Part shown: positions 5,369 through 34,323 of the stretch, one piece after another
Layout: every line of letters begins with the position of its first letter
Numbering within the stretch: position 1 is the stretch's first letter
Assembly (NCBI GenBank): GCA_001780825.1
Contig: MFIX01000140.1
Coordinates: 1-34,323 of the forward strand
Source of the DNA: Candidatus Glassbacteria bacterium RIFCSPLOWO2_12_FULL_58_11
GTDB taxonomy: Bacteria; Gemmatimonadota; Glassbacteria; GWA2-58-10
Direction: 5' to 3'
DNA length: 34,323 nt
Program-made: the position numbers and the translations under genes
Notes under the pieces: generated by a model
Database searches by the model: none
The model's input: only the letters and a program-made list of their open reading frames with translations
What the model was told of the DNA's origin: nothing

Positions 5369-5665
5369 ATGGAAAACGGATTCGATGGCTGGCGGGATAA
5401 AATCGATGAGATCGACAAAAAACTGATCGAGCTTTTCAACAAGCGCGCGGAATACGCGATTGAAATCGGACGGCTCAAGAGAATCAAAGGCCTGCCGGTT
5501 TACGATCCGGAGCGGGAGAACATGATATACGAACAGTTGAAGCTGCGCAACCAGGGTCCGCTTTCCGATCCGGCCATCCGGCGCTTATTCGAGCGGATTA
5601 TCGACGAAACCCGCCGTCTCGAGCGCGAAATCTGTGAAACAGGGGGAGCGGGCGATGATAATTAG
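5369..5665 (+). CDS. aroQ: Chorismate mutase, AroQ class
   Basis: Converts chorismate to prephenate, the branch point to Phe and Tyr. This 98-residue single-domain AroQ protein keeps the active-site set expected from the E. coli enzyme with a constant offset of two: Arg9, Arg26, Lys37, Asp46, Arg49 and Glu50 correspond to Arg11, Arg28, Lys39, Asp48, Arg51 and Glu52. The stop overlaps the start of the DAHP synthase gene by 11 nt, implying translational coupling. In some bacteria this domain is fused to the N-terminus of DAHP synthase as a regulator. Here the two are separate but adjacent, so a regulatory complex is possible but unproven. Expression is likely under the upstream attenuator. Confidence 0.93.
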   Translation: MENGFDGWRDKIDEIDKKLIELFNKRAEYAIEIGRLKRIKGLPVYDPERENMIYEQLKLRNQGPLSDPAIRRLFERIIDETRRLEREICETGGAGDDN

Positions 5666-6674
5666 CATGCGCCACGATGCCTCCGAGCCGCAGATCCAGG
5701 CGGTGATCGAGAAACTCCAGAGCCTGAAGCTCGATGCGCACCGCTCGACCGGCCTCGACCGGACGATTATCGGCGCTATCGGCGATACCGCCCGGATCGA
5801 CACGCGGGATTTCGAGATTCTCGAGGGTGTCGATGACGTGGTGCGCATCTCCGCGCCCTACAAATTGGCCAGCCGCCAGTTCAAGCCTTCGGACACGGTG
5901 GTAAAAATCCGGGATGTGGCTATCGGGGGAAGGGAAGTGGTGGTCTCCGCCGGCCCCTGCTCGGTGGAAAGCCGCGAGCAGATCGATTTGATCGCCCGCC
6001 TGGTGGCCGCCGCAGGCGCGAAAATCCTGCGCGGTGGGGCTTTCAAGCCCCGCACCTCGCCTTATAGTTTTCAAGGCCTGGGCGAGGAGGGTTTGATAAT
6101 GATGCGCGAGGCCGCGGATAAATACGGCCTGGCTATCGCCAGCGAGGTGATGGACGCGAGCCAGATCGAGATGATGCTCCAGTACGTGGATATCTTTCAG
6201 GTAGGGGCGAGGAACATGCAGAATTTCACCCTCCTGCGCAGCCTGAGCAAGGTCAGCAAACCGGTACTTTTGAAAAGGGGGCTCTCGGCAACCATCGAGG
6301 AGTTACTGATGTCAGCCGAGTACATCCTTTCCGGGGGCAACACCCAGGTGATCCTGTGCGAGCGGGGGATTCGCACTTTCGAAACCTACACCCGCAACAC
6401 CATGGATATCTGCGCCATCCCGGTGGTCCATAAACTCAGCCACCTGCCGATTGTCGCTGACCCGAGCCACGGTACGGGCCTGCGCGACAAGGTGCTGCCG
6501 ATGGCGCGCGCGGCGATTGCCGCGGGGGCGGACGGCCTGCTGATCGAGGTCCATCACGAGCCGGACAAGGCGGTCAGTGACGGGGCCCAGAGCCTTTACC
6601 CCAATCAGTTCGACACACTGATGAAAGAGCTGGAAATAATCGCCCGGGCAATCGGCAGAACGCTCGCGGCCTGA
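5655..6674 (+). CDS. aroF: DAHP synthase, Thermotoga-type with N-terminal regulatory domain (copy 1)
   Basis: Condenses phosphoenolpyruvate and erythrose 4-phosphate, the first step of the shikimate pathway. Of 339 residues, about 1-70 form the ferredoxin-like (ACT-like) regulatory domain that mediates Tyr/Phe feedback in the Thermotoga enzyme, and about 85-335 form the TIM barrel. Metal ligands Cys102 (GPCSVE), His272 (DPSHGTG), Glu298 (IEVH) and Asp309 (SDG) fall at the numbers I recall for T. maritima. [15 protein letters not shown] and GARNMQNF are intact. The ATG at 5655 is preferred over an upstream in-frame ATG at 5634 because GGGGGAG lies 6 nt before it and the domain starts there. 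A second copy (11943-12962) follows the leu genes. Confidence 0.95.
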   Translation: MIISMRHDASEPQIQAVIEKLQSLKLDAHRSTGLDRTIIGAIGDTARIDTRDFEILEGVDDVVRISAPYKLASRQFKPSDTVVKIRDVAIGGREVVVSAGPCSVESREQIDLIARLVAAAGAKILRGGAFKPRTSPYSFQGLGEEGLIMMREAADKYGLAIASEVMDASQIEMMLQYVDIFQVGARNMQNFTLLRSLSKVSKPVLLKRGLSATIEELLMSAEYILSGGNTQVILCERGIRTFETYTRNTMDICAIPVVHKLSHLPIVADPSHGTGLRDKVLPMARAAIAAGADGLLIEVHHEPDKAVSDGAQSLYPNQFDTLMKELEIIARAIGRTLAA

Positions 6675-6871: not shown

Positions 6872-8443
6872 ATGTCGAGTAAAAAACGGAAAATTATCAT
6901 TTTCGATACTACCCTGCGCGATGGCGAGCAAAGTCCCGGATGCAGCATGAATCTGGATGAAAAACTGGCCATGGCCCGCCAACTGGCCAGGCTCCAGGTC
7001 GATGTCATCGAGGCAGGGTTCCCGATCGCCAGCGACGGCGATTTCGAGGCGGTAAAGGCAATCGCCCAGCAGGTACGCAATGTCAGAGTGGCCGGCCTGG
7101 CCCGAGCGGTCAAGATCGATATCGATCGGGCCTGGGAGGCGCTGCAGTACGCCGCGCAGCCCCGGATCCACACTTTTATCGCCACCAGTGATATCCACCT
7201 CAAATATAAGCTGAAAAAAAGCCGCCAGGAGGTCCTGGATGCGGCCGTGGCCGCGGTGCAACTGGCCAAAAGCTATTGTGAGGACGTTGAGTTCTCCTGT
7301 GAGGATGCCGGCCGCACTGAGGACGATTACCTGGCGCAGGTGGTCAAGGCGACTATCGAGGCCGGCGCGACCACGATCAACATTCCCGACACGGTCGGCT
7401 ATGCGATCCCCAGCGAATGGGGCGAGCGTATGAAGCGACTGGTTAAGAACGTGCCTGAGCTGACCAGGAAAGCGGTGCTCAGCACGCATTGCCACAACGA
7501 TCTCGGCCTGGCGGTGTCCAATTCAATCGCCGCCTGCCAGAACGGCGCGGGCCAGGTGGAGTGCACGATCAATGGAATCGGCGAGCGGGCCGGCAATGCC
7601 TCGCTGGAGGAGTTCGTGATGGCCTGCCGGACCAGGCACGATCTGCTCGATTTCACCACAGGGATCGTGACCGAGGAAATTTATCCCACCAGCCGCCTGC
7701 TCACCAATACCACCGGAGTATTCGTGCAGCAGAACAAGGCAGTTGTCGGCAAGAACGCATTCGCCCATGAGGCCGGAATCCATCAGGACGGGATGCTGAA
7801 AGATTCGCTGACCTACGAGATCATGACTCCGCAATCGGTGGGGATAGTCAAGAGCAACATCGTCCTGGGAAAACATTCCGGCCGCCACGCCCTGGCCAAC
7901 CGGTTCTCCGAGCTGGGCTTTGATCTGGAGAAGACCGAGCTGGACAAGGCTTACAAACTGTTTACCAAGCTGGCGGACCAGAAGAAAAACATATCGGATG
8001 AGGACCTGCTGGCGATTATTCAGGATGGGATCCAGAATATTCCCGAAAAATGGCACATGAAGTACATCCAGACCATAGGCGGCAACCAGGTGGTCAGCTC
8101 GGCCGTGGTAGTCCTGATTGATATGGACACCAGCACCGAGGTCAAAGACGCTGCTCCCGGAGATGGGCCGGTCAGCGCCCTCTGTAAATCGATTGACCGG
8201 ATTGTCGGCCTTGAAGGTACGGTCACTGACTACCAGGTGCATTCGATCACCGAGGGCCGGGATGCGGTCGGCGAGGTGTTCCTGCGCGTTACTTTCGATA
8301 AAGTCGAGTATATGGGCAAAGCGGCGAGCACCGATGTGATGGATGCGACCGCCAGAGCTTATCTCAATGCGGTCAATAAGGCCTTGTACGCCAGGCAAAA
8401 CAGCAAGTCGAAGAAACGGGACAGGCATGGGGCGGGAGTCTGA
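6872..8443 (+). CDS. leuA: 2-isopropylmalate synthase
   Basis: Condenses acetyl-CoA with 2-oxoisovalerate, the committed step to leucine. It has 523 residues. The N-terminal TIM barrel contains the DRE-TIM signature [13 protein letters not shown] (11-23), the metal-binding [13 protein letters not shown] motif (about 208-220) and [14 protein letters not shown]. The C-terminal LeuA dimer domain (about 390-505) normally binds leucine for feedback inhibition. [12 protein letters not shown] is also present, as in LeuA of the bacterial class I. GGGAGG lies 5 nt before the ATG. The C-terminal tail is Lys/Arg-rich. It heads leuA-leuC-leuD-leuB and is separated from aroF1 by a 197-nt leader that holds the Leu-rich ORF. 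The call is secure; citramalate synthase is less likely because leuCD and a leuB homologue follow. Confidence 0.95.
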
Positions 8444-11901: not shown

Positions 11902-11942
11902 ACCTGACTAACTTGCTTTACCCTGACTGAAAGCGGCGCTTG

Positions 11943-12962
11943 ATGATTATTGTCATGCAGGAAAACGCCACCCGCGAGCAGATTGACCACGTGTTCGAGC
12001 GGGTGCGCGAGCTGGGTTACAACGTACATCCGATCTACGGCAAGCAGCGCACGGTGATCGGCGCGATCGGGGATGAGCGCGGCAAGTTCCGCCTGAAATC
12101 CCTCGAATCGGTCCCCGGAGTCGAATCGGTCATCCCAATCCTCAAGCCCTATAAGCTGGTCGGCCGGGAGCTCAAGAAAGAGAAAACCGTGGTCCGGGTG
12201 GGCGAGGATGTCGCTTTCGGCAGCAAGCAGTTCGTGATAATCGCCGGACCCTGTTCGGTGGAGAGCCGCGAACAGATTATCGAGACCGCTGAGCGCGTAA
12301 AAAAGGCTGGGGCCCGCATGCTGCGCGGCGGAGCTTTCAAGCCCCGAACCTCGCCTTACAGTTTCCAGGGTCTGGAGGAGGAAGGGCTTGAGCTGCTGGC
12401 CGAGGCCCGGGAAAAGACCGGACTCAAGATTGTCACCGAGGTGATCACGCCCCAGGACCTGCCCCTCGTCTCCAGTTACGCGGATGTCCTGCAGGTGGGC
12501 GCCCGCAACATGCAAAATTTCGCCCTGCTCAAGCAGATTGGCCAGCTCGACAAGCCGGTGCTGCTCAAGCGCGGGCTGTCGGCGACTATCAACGAGTTCC
12601 TGATGTCCGCCGAATATATCCTGAGCGAGGGCAACCGCAACGTAATCCTCTGCGAGCGCGGGATTCGGACTTTCGAAACCGCGACACGCAACACGCTGGA
12701 CCTCTCCGCGGTCCCGCTGATCCTGAAAATGAGCCATTTGCCGATAATTGTCGATCCGAGCCACGGGACCGGGGTGCCGGACCTGGTGGCGCCGATGTCC
12801 AAGGCGGCGGCGGCCGCGGGCGCGGATGGGGTCATTGTCGAGGTGCACAGCAACCCGGAAACCGCCCTTTCGGATGGCGAGCAGTCGCTGGACCCGGATG
12901 CTTTCGACCGGCTGGTGGGCGCGCTCAAGCCGATACTCAAGGCAGAGGGGCGTACGCTTTGA
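11943..12962 (+). CDS. aroF: DAHP synthase, Thermotoga-type (copy 2)
   Basis: Same reaction, domain order and length (339 residues) as copy 1 at 5655-6674, with a ferredoxin-like N-terminal domain (about 1-70) and a TIM barrel with GPCSVE (Cys104), [34 protein letters not shown] and DPSHGTG. The two proteins are clearly paralogous, but the regulatory domains differ more than the barrels, so they may respond to different end products (inference). A TTG immediately before the ATG is also in frame. ATG 11943 is chosen because it aligns with copy 1. The ribosome binding site is weak. The gene lies 41 nt after leuB and ends the block before a terminator. Confidence 0.94.
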
Positions 12963-28918: not shown

Positions 28919-30082
28919 ATGGAGTATTTCCTGACTGAAGAGCAGCTCGAGATCAAGCGCCTGGCGCGCCGGATCGCCGAGAATCATGTAATCCCCCAGC
29001 GAGCGGAGCTGGACAAGAACGCTGAATTCCCGCATGCGATCATGAAAGAAATCGCCGAAGCCGGCCTGCCGGCGATCTATATCCCGGAGGAGTACGATGG
29101 GATCGGAGCGGGGCTGCTGGAGCTGTGTCTGGCCACCGAGGAGCTGAGCCGGGCCTGCGGCGGAGTCGGTGTGACCTATGCGGCCAGCTCGCTGGGCAGT
29201 TTTCCGATAATTATCGGTGGCAGCCACGAGCAGAAGGCCAGATTTTTGCCGCCGATCGCCTCCGGCGAGCATTACGCGGCATTCTGCCTGACCGAGGCCG
29301 GGGCCGGCTCGGACGCCGGCAACATCTCGACGAATGCGCGCAAGGTCGGCAATGAATACGTAATTAATGGGACCAAGCAGTGGATCACCAATGGCTGCGA
29401 GGCGCATACCTACACGGTTTTCGCGAAGACCGACAAGGCCCGTGGGGCGCGCGGGATCAGCGCATTCGTGGTCGAAAAAGGCACCCCCGGGCTCTCTTTC
29501 GGCAAAAAAGAGGACAAGCTGGGGATCCGCTGTTCCGCCACCTATGAGGTCGTATTTGAGGACTGCGTAGTGCCCGCGGAGAACCTTCTCGGCCGGGAAG
29601 GCGCCGGGTTCAGTATCGCCATGCGCACCTTCGACAAGTCCCGTCCGGGGATCGGCGCGCAGTCGATCGGGATCGCCCAGGGCGCCTATGAGGCCGCCCT
29701 CAATTACGCCTATACTCGTCAGCAGTTCGGCCAGTCGATCCTGAATTTTCAGGCGGTCTCGTTCATGCTAGCTGACATGGCGATCCAGATCGAGGCTGCC
29801 CGGGCTCTTACCTACCAGGTCGCCCGGATGGTCGACGCCGGAATAAAGAATTACGGCAAGGAAAGCGCCATGTGCAAGGTCTTTCCCTCGGACGTGGCGA
29901 TGCGGGTGACCACCGATGCTATACAGATTATGGGCGGTTACGGCTATATGAAAGATTACCCGGCGGAGAAGTATTTCCGCGATGCCAAGATCACCCAGAT
30001 CTACGAGGGCACCAACCAGATACAGCGGCAGATCATTGCCTCCAGCCTTATTCGGGAAATGGCGAGCGGACAGAGGGGTTAG
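28919..30082 (+). CDS. Acyl-CoA dehydrogenase
   Basis: FAD-dependent alpha,beta-desaturation of an acyl-CoA, passing electrons to ETF. It has 387 residues, the normal length for the soluble short/medium-chain class. Visible parts are the FAD-contact motif CLTEAGAGSDAG (about 124-135), the TRQQFGQ segment, GGYGYMKDYPAEKYFRDAKI and catalytic Glu363 in IYEGTNQIQ. Upstream frame extension to 28733 overlaps rnc and is rejected: GGAG (28910-28913) lies 5 nt before ATG 28919. The substrate is not predictable (butyryl-, acyl- or branched-chain). It is a catabolic-type gene between rnc and mqnE, 34 nt after rnc. Confidence 0.94.
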   Translation: MEYFLTEEQLEIKRLARRIAENHVIPQRAELDKNAEFPHAIMKEIAEAGLPAIYIPEEYDGIGAGLLELCLATEELSRACGGVGVTYAASSLGSFPIIIGGSHEQKARFLPPIASGEHYAAFCLTEAGAGSDAGNISTNARKVGNEYVINGTKQWITNGCEAHTYTVFAKTDKARGARGISAFVVEKGTPGLSFGKKEDKLGIRCSATYEVVFEDCVVPAENLLGREGAGFSIAMRTFDKSRPGIGAQSIGIAQGAYEAALNYAYTRQQFGQSILNFQAVSFMLADMAIQIEAARALTYQVARMVDAGIKNYGKESAMCKVFPSDVAMRVTTDAIQIMGGYGYMKDYPAEKYFRDAKITQIYEGTNQIQRQIIASSLIREMASGQRG

Positions 30083-30102
30083 TGATTATCAGGGAGAAAG
30101 CA

Positions 30103-31194
30103 GTGGGGTTCCGCGACCGGCGGCTCGAACGGATTGCCGGTAAACTGGCCGCGGGGGGCAGGCTGGACCGGAAGGATGGTCTGGCCCTTTTCGAGACCGG
30201 GGACCTGCTCGGGCTGGGAAAGCTGGCGGATGAAGCCAATCTACGGAAAAACGGCGGCCGCGTCTTCTACATAAATAACCTGCACGTCAACTATACCAAT
30301 ATCTGCGTCAACAAATGCCGCTTCTGCGCCTACCGAAGGAGCGAGGATGAGCGTGGAGCGTTTTTCCTCTCTGCGGAACAGGTGGTGGCCAAAGCGCGTG
30401 AGCTATGGCACGCCAAGGCTTGTGAGTTCCACATAGTCGGAGGCTGCCATCCCTCGGCACGCCTGGATTACTACCGCGAGATGCTCACCCGCCTTCGCCG
30501 CGAGTTTCCTCAGGTGCATCTGCAGGCCTTTACCGCGGTGGAGATAGAAAATATCGCCCAGGTGGAAAATCTCCCGGTTCCCGAGGTCCTCGCCAGCCTG
30601 GCCGAGTGCGGCCTGGGGTCGCTGCCCGGCGGCGGGGGAGAGATTTTCGCCGAAAAAATCCGGTCCAAGATCTGCCCGGAAAAAATCAGCGGGGCGCGCT
30701 ACCTGGAGGTAATGCGTCAGGCGCACCAGCTGGGGCTGCCATCCAATGTGACCATGCTTTTCGGCCATATCGAGTCGGCGGCGGACCGGGTGGACCATTT
30801 GTTGGAAATCCGCGCCCTCCAGGATGAAACTGGCGGATTCAACGCTTTTATTCCATTGCTGTTCCACCCCTGGAACACGAAACTCGAAAAGCTCCGGAAA
30901 GCAGGCGCGGTCGATGTCCTGAAAACAATTGCGGTCAGCCGGCTGCTGTTGGACAATTTCAAACATATCAAGTCGTTCTGGATCATGCTAGGTCTCCCAT
31001 TGACCCAGATTTCCCTGTTTTTCGGGTCGGATGATGTGAACGGCACGGTGCTGGAAGAGCATATTACGCACGAGGCCGGGGCCGATACTCCACAATACAT
31101 GCCCGAAGAAAAGCTCGTTTCCCTGATCCGTCAGGCCGGGCGGATTCCGGTCGAAAGGGATACACTTTACAATCCGATCTGTGGTGAGGTATAA
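30103..31194 (+). CDS. mqnE: Aminofutalosine synthase (radical SAM)
   Basis: Futalosine pathway to menaquinone: joins 3-(1-carboxyvinyloxy)benzoate to a SAM-derived adenosyl radical, giving aminodeoxyfutalosine. The 363-residue protein has an intact cluster motif Cys68-x3-Cys72-x2-Cys75 in NICVNKCRFCAYRR, LGSLPGGGGEIF, and the SPASM-free C-terminal half shared with MqnC. The start is GTG 30103, with AGGGAG (30091-30096) 6 nt upstream. Another GTG at 30082 overlaps the preceding stop and is a poorer choice. The nhaD-like gene promoter lies over its 3' end. Distinguished from MqnC by the CAYRR motif and overall pattern. Confidence 0.9.
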   Translation: MGFRDRRLERIAGKLAAGGRLDRKDGLALFETGDLLGLGKLADEANLRKNGGRVFYINNLHVNYTNICVNKCRFCAYRRSEDERGAFFLSAEQVVAKARELWHAKACEFHIVGGCHPSARLDYYREMLTRLRREFPQVHLQAFTAVEIENIAQVENLPVPEVLASLAECGLGSLPGGGGEIFAEKIRSKICPEKISGARYLEVMRQAHQLGLPSNVTMLFGHIESAADRVDHLLEIRALQDETGGFNAFIPLLFHPWNTKLEKLRKAGAVDVLKTIAVSRLLLDNFKHIKSFWIMLGLPLTQISLFFGSDDVNGTVLEEHITHEAGADTPQYMPEEKLVSLIRQAGRIPVERDTLYNPICGEV

Positions 31195-31370: not shown

Positions 31371-32849
31371 ATGCGGATTTCTGTGTTTGCCGCTGGATTG
31401 CTTGCCATCCTGTGCGGCTTGTTTCTGCTAGATGGCGCCAGTGCCGGAGCGCTGCTGCTGGCCGAGGAAGAAGCCGCCCACGGCGGGATCGATCTGGGAG
31501 CCATGCTGCCGCTCTGGAGTGTCATCCCCTTCGCCGGGATGCTGCTCAGCATTGCCTTATTTCCGCTTTTCGCTCCGGGCTTCTGGCACCATCACTATCC
31601 CAAGGTGAGCGCTTTCTGGTCGCTGATACTCGCCATCCCCTTTGTGGCGGCCTACGGGCATGCGGCCTGGCACGAGATTCTGCATATCTACCTTGTCGAT
31701 TACATCCCCTTTATCATCCTGCTCTGGGGCCTATTTACAGTCAGCGGCGGTTTGCTGGTCCGGGGCAAACTCAAGGGCACCCCGGTCGTCAACACTGTCT
31801 TTCTTCTTATCGGTACAATCCTGGCTTCCTGGGTGGGCACCACCGGCGCCTCGATGCTGCTGATCCGGCCGGTTATCCGCTCCAATAAAGACCGTCAGAG
31901 CAAGGTTCATATCATAGTCTTTTTTATTTTCCTGGTGGCTAATATCGGCGGGTGCCTGACCCCGCTGGGAGATCCGCCGCTGTTTCTCGGCTTCCTTCAT
32001 GGCGTGTCTTTCTTCTGGACGATGCAGCTTCTTCCCACCATGTCCTTTCTGGCGGTGCTCTTGCTCGTCGTCTTCTTTCTCTTCGATCTTATCCTCTATA
32101 AGAGAGAGCAGAAATCCGCCTCGACAGTGCAATCCGCTGCTGAGGCCGGAGCTGAGAAGCACGAGAAAATCTCTGTTGTCGGGCTTTACAATATCATCTT
32201 CCTGCTGGGTATCATGGGCAGCGTCTTGATGAGCGGCATACTCGATCTGGCCTCGCTCAATATCGGCGGCATCGAGGTCGAGGGGCAGAACCTGTTGCGC
32301 GATGTGCTGATATTGTTGATGGGATTTCTTTCCTGGCATTTCACGCCGCGCGAAATCCGCCAGGAAAACGAGTTCACCTGGTTCCCAATCATCGAAGTGG
32401 CCTATCTGTTCGCCGGAATTTTCATGACCATTATCCCGGCTCTGGAGATCTTGAAAGCCGGCGAGCACGGAGCCCTGGCTTTTCTGATCAAAACCGTCAG
32501 CGAGCCGGTGCATTACTTCTGGGCCACAGGCGCGCTGTCCTCCTTCCTGGACAATGCGCCCACGTATCTGACATTTTTCAACAGTGCCCTTGGACAACTT
32601 TTGCCCGGTGTCCCTGAGGCCACGGCCGTGCAGGACCTGATGACCACCCATAAGGTCTATCTTGAGGCGATCAGCGCCGGCGCAGTATTCATGGGGGCCA
32701 ATACCTACATCGGCAACGCGCCGAATTTCATGGTCCGCTCGATCGCTGAGGAAAGCGGGATCAAGATGCCGAGCTTCTTCGGCTATATGGTATATTCCAT
32801 ATTCATCTTGATCCCCATGTTCACCCTGGTGAGCCTGATTTTCTTTTAA
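31371..32849 (+). CDS. Na+/H+ antiporter of the NhaD/CitM-like ion-transporter superfamily
   Basis: A 492-residue inner-membrane protein with about 11-12 hydrophobic segments. The first (about 5-25) may act as a signal anchor or cleaved signal. A His-rich loop FWHHHYPKVS follows the second segment. ANIGGCLTPLGDPPLFLGFL and FLDNAPTYLTF form the paired re-entrant motifs typical of the IT superfamily (NhaD, ArsB, CitM). The WSVIPFAGMLLSIALFPL start is typical of proteins annotated as sodium:proton antiporters. GGAG lies 6 nt before the ATG. It has its own promoter, structured leader and strong terminator, so it is an independent unit between mqnE and mqnC. The ion specificity is inferred from the family. 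Confidence 0.85.
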   Translation: MRISVFAAGLLAILCGLFLLDGASAGALLLAEEEAAHGGIDLGAMLPLWSVIPFAGMLLSIALFPLFAPGFWHHHYPKVSAFWSLILAIPFVAAYGHAAWHEILHIYLVDYIPFIILLWGLFTVSGGLLVRGKLKGTPVVNTVFLLIGTILASWVGTTGASMLLIRPVIRSNKDRQSKVHIIVFFIFLVANIGGCLTPLGDPPLFLGFLHGVSFFWTMQLLPTMSFLAVLLLVVFFLFDLILYKREQKSASTVQSAAEAGAEKHEKISVVGLYNIIFLLGIMGSVLMSGILDLASLNIGGIEVEGQNLLRDVLILLMGFLSWHFTPREIRQENEFTWFPIIEVAYLFAGIFMTIIPALEILKAGEHGALAFLIKTVSEPVHYFWATGALSSFLDNAPTYLTFFNSALGQLLPGVPEATAVQDLMTTHKVYLEAISAGAVFMGANTYIGNAPNFMVRSIAEESGIKMPSFFGYMVYSIFILIPMFTLVSLIFF

Positions 32850-33027: not shown

Positions 33028-34059
33028 ATGAGCCGGAGCTTTTTGCGGTTCGGTCTGGAGCTGCTGCAAGATACCGAACTTCTGAGTCTTGGGGCCCTTG
33101 CCGACAGTGTCCGGCGACGGCTGCATCCCGAAGGCCGGGTGACCTTTATCAACGACCGCAATATCAACTATTCGAATATCCGTATCAGCCGCTGCCGGTT
33201 CTGCGCCTTTTACCGAGGGGAAAAAGACGCCGCGGCCTACCTTCTCAGTTACGAGGAGATCGGCCGGAAGATCGATGAGGCAAAGGCCCTGGGCGCGGTG
33301 CAGATACTTCTGCAGGGCGGCCTGCACCCGGGTCTCGGCCTCGAATGGTACACGGGATTGCTGCGTTATATCAAGCGCCGCCACCCGATCCACGTTCACG
33401 CTTTTTCCGCCCCGGAGATTGACCATATCGCCCGGCTTTCCGGGCTGGAGCCGGAACGGGTGATCGAGGAGCTGGCCGCCTCCGGGCTGGATTCGATTCC
33501 AGGCGGAGGAGCGGAAGTCCTTTGCGCCAGAGTAAGAAAGCTGGTCAGCCCGCGGAAGATCGGGGTAAAGCGCTGGCTGGCGATCCATGAGCGGGCGCAC
33601 CGCCTGGGCTTAAGGACCACGGCGACCCTGGTTTATGGGATGGGAGAGAGGCCCGAGGAGTTGATCCGTCACCTGCGTCACATCCGCGCCCTGCAGGAGC
33701 GCACGGGCGGGTTTACCGCTTTCATCCCCTGGAGCTTCCAGCCTGAGCACACCCGGCTGCGGGAGGAAAAGACCACGCCGGTCACATATCTGCGCGTACT
33801 GGCCGCCAGCCGTATTCTGCTGGACAACGTTCCCTCGATCCAGGCCTCCTGGGTCACCCAGGGCCCGGATATCGCTACGCTGGCCCTCTATTTCGGGGCC
33901 AATGATTTCGGCAGCACGATGCTGGAAGAAAACGTGGTGCGCGCCGCCGGCTGCAATTTCTCGACCATGGATGAGCCGACAATCGCCCGCCTGATCCGGC
34001 AGGCCGGATTCACTCCGGCTCTGCGGCGGCAGGATTACAGTATTATCCGGACACTTTAG
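33028..34059 (+). CDS. mqnC: MqnC-type radical SAM protein with first cluster cysteine replaced by Arg
   Basis: By family, cyclic dehypoxanthinylfutalosine synthase, which cyclises dehypoxanthine futalosine in the menaquinone pathway. The 343-residue protein keeps NDRNINYSN before and CRFCAFYRGE after the cluster loop, LLQGGLHPGL, SGLDSIPGGGAEVL, TTATLVYGMGE and LYFGANDFGSTMLEENV, all MqnC-like. The CxxxCxxC motif is incomplete: the first cysteine position is Arg52 (CGT at 33181-33183), with Cys56 and Cys59 present. One T-to-C change from TGT would explain it. It may be a sequencing error, a recent loss of function or a divergent paralogue. The remainder of the frame is intact. An MTA-phosphorylase-like gene follows. 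Confidence 0.85.
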   Translation: MSRSFLRFGLELLQDTELLSLGALADSVRRRLHPEGRVTFINDRNINYSNIRISRCRFCAFYRGEKDAAAYLLSYEEIGRKIDEAKALGAVQILLQGGLHPGLGLEWYTGLLRYIKRRHPIHVHAFSAPEIDHIARLSGLEPERVIEELAASGLDSIPGGGAEVLCARVRKLVSPRKIGVKRWLAIHERAHRLGLRTTATLVYGMGERPEELIRHLRHIRALQERTGGFTAFIPWSFQPEHTRLREEKTTPVTYLRVLAASRILLDNVPSIQASWVTQGPDIATLALYFGANDFGSTMLEENVVRAAGCNFSTMDEPTIARLIRQAGFTPALRRQDYSIIRTL

Positions 34060-34092
34060 CCCGGGAAACGGATTCTTGAATTGAAAAATCCC

Positions 34093-34323
34093 ATGCAAAA
34101 ACTAAAGACAGCTCCCGGAGATTATTCCGGGTTCGCGGTGATCGGCGGCAGCGGGGCTTACGACTTGACCCTGGAGAGTATCGGTGAGAGGGCGGGGGGG
34201 CTGGTTCTCGAGACGCCGTTTGGCAAGGCCTCGCCGATCGAGTTCCTGCGTCCAGAGGGTTGCCGGGGAACGTTAGCTTTCCTGTCCCGTCACGGGACCT
34301 CCGGCTATCAGCGGACCGCGGGG
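34093..34323 (+). CDS. mtnP: S-methyl-5'-thioadenosine phosphorylase-like protein (5' part, cut by window end)
   Basis: The first 77 residues of a purine nucleoside phosphorylase-family protein: the phosphate-binding start IGGSGAYDL (about 17-25), ETPFGKASPIEF and the LSRHG motif are seen. The frame is open to the window end. ATG 34093 is taken as start. An in-frame TTG at 34081, with CGGA 8 nt before it, is an alternative that adds four residues. MTA phosphorylases salvage methylthioadenosine. Next to mqnC, this one might instead cleave aminodeoxyfutalosine or the 5'-deoxyadenosine made by radical SAM enzymes (inference). Confidence 0.85.
   Translation, partial: MQKLKTAPGDYSGFAVIGGSGAYDLTLESIGERAGGLVLETPFGKASPIEFLRPEGCRGTLAFLSRHGTSGYQRTAG

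Follow-up and report, generated by a model that had tools for sequence, protein, structure and literature searches.

The window, that is, the whole stretch of 34,323 nucleotides analysed here, corresponds to bases 1-34323 of scaffold C140 (63,763 bases), from the scaffolded draft genome of an uncultured bacterium, which has 263 contigs and 4.17 Mb and is rated as 91% complete. On its forward strand, mqnE, which encodes an aminofutalosine synthase, occupies positions 30082-31194 and begins with a GTG codon; its product reaches 473.7 bits against TIGR03700 (cut-off 434.55). It is followed on the same strand by an ORF that resembles a membrane transporter (31371-32849, NhaD-type by look) and by mqnC (33028-34059, forward strand, ATG start codon), encoding a cyclic dehypoxanthinyl futalosine synthase of 343 amino acids, a radical SAM enzyme of menaquinone (vitamin K2) biosynthesis. 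A similar mqnE-transporter-mqnC order is present in a relative (locus L075). The start of a gene of the MTA/nucleoside phosphorylase family, recognised by its family match, lies at 34081-34323 on the forward strand and is cut at the window end by a gap of 44 N. This interrupted gene, located 3' of mqnC, might be a candidate for the MqnB-type step. Elsewhere in the window, two DAHP synthase-like ORFs (5634-6674 and 11940-12962, identified by eye) flank leucine-pathway-like genes.

The product of mqnC matches the NCBIfam model TIGR03699 over its full length with 450.5-451 bits, above the curated equivalog cut-off of 428.1, and it also matches PF04055 and PF19288 (CofH/MqnC C-terminal region). 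The gene is near mqnE, as noted above, and the protein is 79% identical to that of the nearest relative (L006). The closest solved structure by sequence is MqnE, aminodeoxyfutalosine synthase (6xi9 and 6xig; E 6.1e-45, residues 8-339), which also belongs to the radical SAM family. However, MqnE is a separate enzyme encoded in the same window, and the mqnC product is not an MqnE, since it reaches 317.3 bits against TIGR03700 and remains below the cut-off of 434.55. Judged by these matches, the protein is an MqnC orthologue by descent, although this does not in itself demonstrate a working MqnC. Two residues set it apart from the MqnC proteins with which it was aligned: Arg in place of the first cluster cysteine, and Thr at the otherwise invariant Gln284.

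The first of these differences is encoded by codon 52 (33181-33183, forward strand), which is CGT and lies where the CxxxCxxC motif has its first cysteine. The motif region is NINYSNIRISRCRFCAFYR in the window protein, whereas the relatives show NIC/NVC...C.FC in the alignment. Residues 52-59 consequently read RxxxCxxC (RISRCRFC), with two of the three cysteines of the radical SAM motif, while C56 (33193-33195) and C59 (33202-33204) are intact on the forward strand (33193-33204). The original prediction, made from the letters of the window, had pointed to the loss of this cysteine in MqnC and to its conservation in MqnE, and both points were borne out, the MqnE of the same window carrying all three cysteines (CVNKCRFC). 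It had also placed CGT one base away from TGT, and TGT is indeed the codon of the nearest relative, with the difference in the first base.

Radical SAM enzymes use their three motif cysteines to coordinate three of the irons in the [4Fe-4S] cluster, the fourth being left to SAM (PMC5943407, PMC11048331), and MqnC uses the resulting radical for the cyclisation of dehypoxanthine futalosine (PMC8210684). KW_cyclase lost SAM cleavage when its three cluster cysteines were all replaced at once (PMC5491770), and the literature searched contained no study of MqnC with Arg in place of the first cysteine alone. From this chemistry we infer that the encoded Arg52 protein would neither keep a stable cluster able to cleave SAM nor cyclise dehypoxanthine futalosine. 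A replacement cysteine as ligand was rejected, because MqnC carries no new cysteine: its four cysteines are C56, C59 and two others common to the relatives.

A recoding, with CGT read as Cys or an edited transcript, has nothing in its favour other than the position of the codon. It is hardly conceivable and was largely refuted by the codon usage of the window, where CGT is an ordinary Arg codon (44 of the 429 Arg codons counted), and by mqnC itself, in which the CGT codons 113, 217 and 262 fall on Arg residues conserved in 5/5 family relatives.

The comparison of codon 52 in related genomes gave no sign of an Arg conserved across relatives. Cys was found at this codon in the five other family genomes, the nearest relative included, at the aligned position of ten named loci from several phyla, and in 43/43 of the other distinct MqnC proteins in the alignment. 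Of the 395 genomes sampled across the phylum, 228 matched the motif when position 52 was left free, and only one, the window's own genome, when the first base of this codon was restricted to A, C or G; the latter pattern is blind to non-Cys codons starting with T, and the any-codon matches printed were all TGT or TGC by eye. The relatives compared come from the same family and from wider groups, with no second genome of the genus in the sample. On the evidence of these alignments, Arg52 is private to the window genome and is not a conserved variant.

The original prediction had kept an assembly error, a recent inactivating mutation and a tolerated replacement open, and the relatives argue against a conserved tolerated replacement, the Arg being found only in this genome. 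The best explanation seems to be an ordinary MqnC orthologue with one isolated base change at the first cluster cysteine, due either to an error or to a recent inactivating mutation (probability about 0.8; all degrees of probability expressed here are judgements and were not computed). The change would be a single first-base substitution that turned a TGT-type Cys codon into the CGT Arg codon.

The rest of the gene is consistent with this explanation. No internal stops were found in mqnC, and its differences from the nearest relative are distributed as 64, 44 and 170 over the first, second and third codon positions, with dN = 0.165, dS = 1.42 and a dN/dS of about 0.12 (NG86; dS is close to saturation). 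The window MqnC departs from near-invariant columns 7 times, compared with 1, 7, 7, 7 and 12 times in the five family relatives. Moreover, 73 of the 75 columns that are invariant in the 43 other MqnC proteins are kept, C52R and Q284T being the two exceptions. Therefore, the claim that there is no other decay stands broadly (absence of stops, low dN/dS, departures within the range of the relatives), but it has to be qualified by Q284T, a private change at an invariant residue. Apart from codon 52, the mqnC gene is apparently alive and under constraint.

Codon 284 (33877-33879, forward strand) is ACG (Thr), whereas the other 43 MqnC proteins present Gln in the alignment, and the aligned MqnE also has Gln at this position. 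Since two base changes separate CAG from ACG, a simple miscall is unlikely, and Q284T is probably a true change of the lineage. As another private change, again at an invariant position, it counts against the explanation of one isolated base change, because the MqnC of this lineage may be truly different.

Regarding the origin of the change at codon 52, a consensus or assembly error has in our judgement an even chance of being the right answer: the true codon would be Cys, and the base of the draft would be wrong or derived from a minor haplotype. This fits with Arg52 being a singleton in the phylum sample, with CGT lying one base from the codon of the relatives and with the conservation of the remainder of mqnC. 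The assembly of 263 contigs is also a draft, and four gaps lie within the 2 kb beyond the window end. In the part of the scaffold examined in full there are six runs of N, four of them between 34,324 and 36,250 (34324-34367, with 44 N; 35816-35823; 36101-36120; 36236-36250). This gap cluster points to a weak assembly just 3' of mqnC, which makes a consensus error at codon 52 more plausible. Nevertheless, the first 34.3 kb of the scaffold, codon 52 included, are free of gaps and ambiguous bases, 1.1 kb separate the codon from the nearest gap, and internal stops are absent from the 17 window genes checked. A position of mqnC at a contig edge was ruled out, given that the scaffold runs to 63,763 bases, even though the window ends at the gap of 44 N.

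The change could also be real and very recent, making the only mqnC found a strain-level pseudogene. We consider this possible but doubtful, and it would imply that the inactivation is tolerated, with cells that live without their own menaquinone, that scavenge menaquinone, or that were sampled while the mutation had yet to be purged. The search of the genome for a second mqnC with a complete CxxxCxxC, as the original prediction had proposed, returned none in the assembled genome (91% complete), the next match being MqnE, so that no paralogue in the assembled sequence would make up for a loss of MqnC. Q284T, as a second private and non-conservative change, also favours inactivation, and the 8 lineage-specific residues of the window MqnC, compared with 4 in the nearest relative, go in the same direction, though they are too few for significance. 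On the other hand, no other decay was observed, and MqnE shows only conservative departures. Furthermore, ORFs on the same contig that look by eye like haem-copper oxidases suggest quinone-linked respiration, which speaks against the inactivation.

A functional variant, in which C56 and C59 hold the cluster together with a non-Cys ligand, or with a ligand that is shifted or supplied by a partner, is unlikely. Purifying selection on the remainder of the protein and the lack of another MqnC in the genome agree with an enzyme that still works, and the co-occurring Q284T could be compensatory. Against it, Arg52 occurs in no relative, even at 79% identity, and no new cysteine was identified. To our knowledge, clusters of this kind do not usually have Arg as a ligand. 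Atypical cluster motifs are known from other members of the radical SAM group, for example Dph1-Dph2, which lacks a plain CxxxCxxC (PMC11048331). However, enzymes of the Dph1-Dph2 type still rely on at least three cysteines from other parts of the chain, and the window MqnC has no such replacement. The narrower proposal of a natural, working MqnC that binds its cluster in the absence of the first motif cysteine, with compensation by Q284T, is more unlikely still. If the Arg is real and the enzyme is active, it would break the rule of three motif cysteines for radical SAM enzymes of the family of MqnC.

Concerning the rest of the futalosine pathway, mqnE and the phosphorylase-family gene are present in the window genome, and no match was found there either with PF02621 (MqnA/MqnD) or with the MqnA of the nearest relative as a query. 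In four relatives (G002-G005), mqnA directly follows guaB, and the guaB match of the window genome (contig C74, 5655-6989) breaks off at base 6989, in a contig of 6991 bases. Because this contig ends inside the gene that precedes mqnA in the four relatives, mqnA is most simply regarded as unassembled. The loss of the pathway, which could be deduced from the zero PF02621 matches, is thus unsupported for MqnA, and the explanation of its absence by a contig break instead of a loss also speaks against the inactivation of mqnC. The classical Men pathway was considered as a backup and rejected, as no MenD above the cut-off was found in any of the six family genomes.

MqnD shows a different pattern. 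MqnC is conserved in the family and four of the six family genomes have MqnA, but neither Pfam nor an alignment made for the purpose revealed MqnD in any of the six, three of which are rated as 97-99% complete. PF02621 is present in the family as a single copy, of the MqnA type, while most other PF02621-bearing genomes of the phylum sample have two copies. From the gene content, the whole family seems to be without MqnD, and this step may be carried out by a divergent or unknown enzyme.

Arg52 is mainly a caution that a key enzyme can seem dead because of one base in a draft, and the relatives can tell whether such a change is shared. That MqnD is apparently absent from the whole family may be a more useful lead than Arg52, as it suggests that an unknown or very divergent enzyme could take its place in the futalosine pathway of these bacteria.
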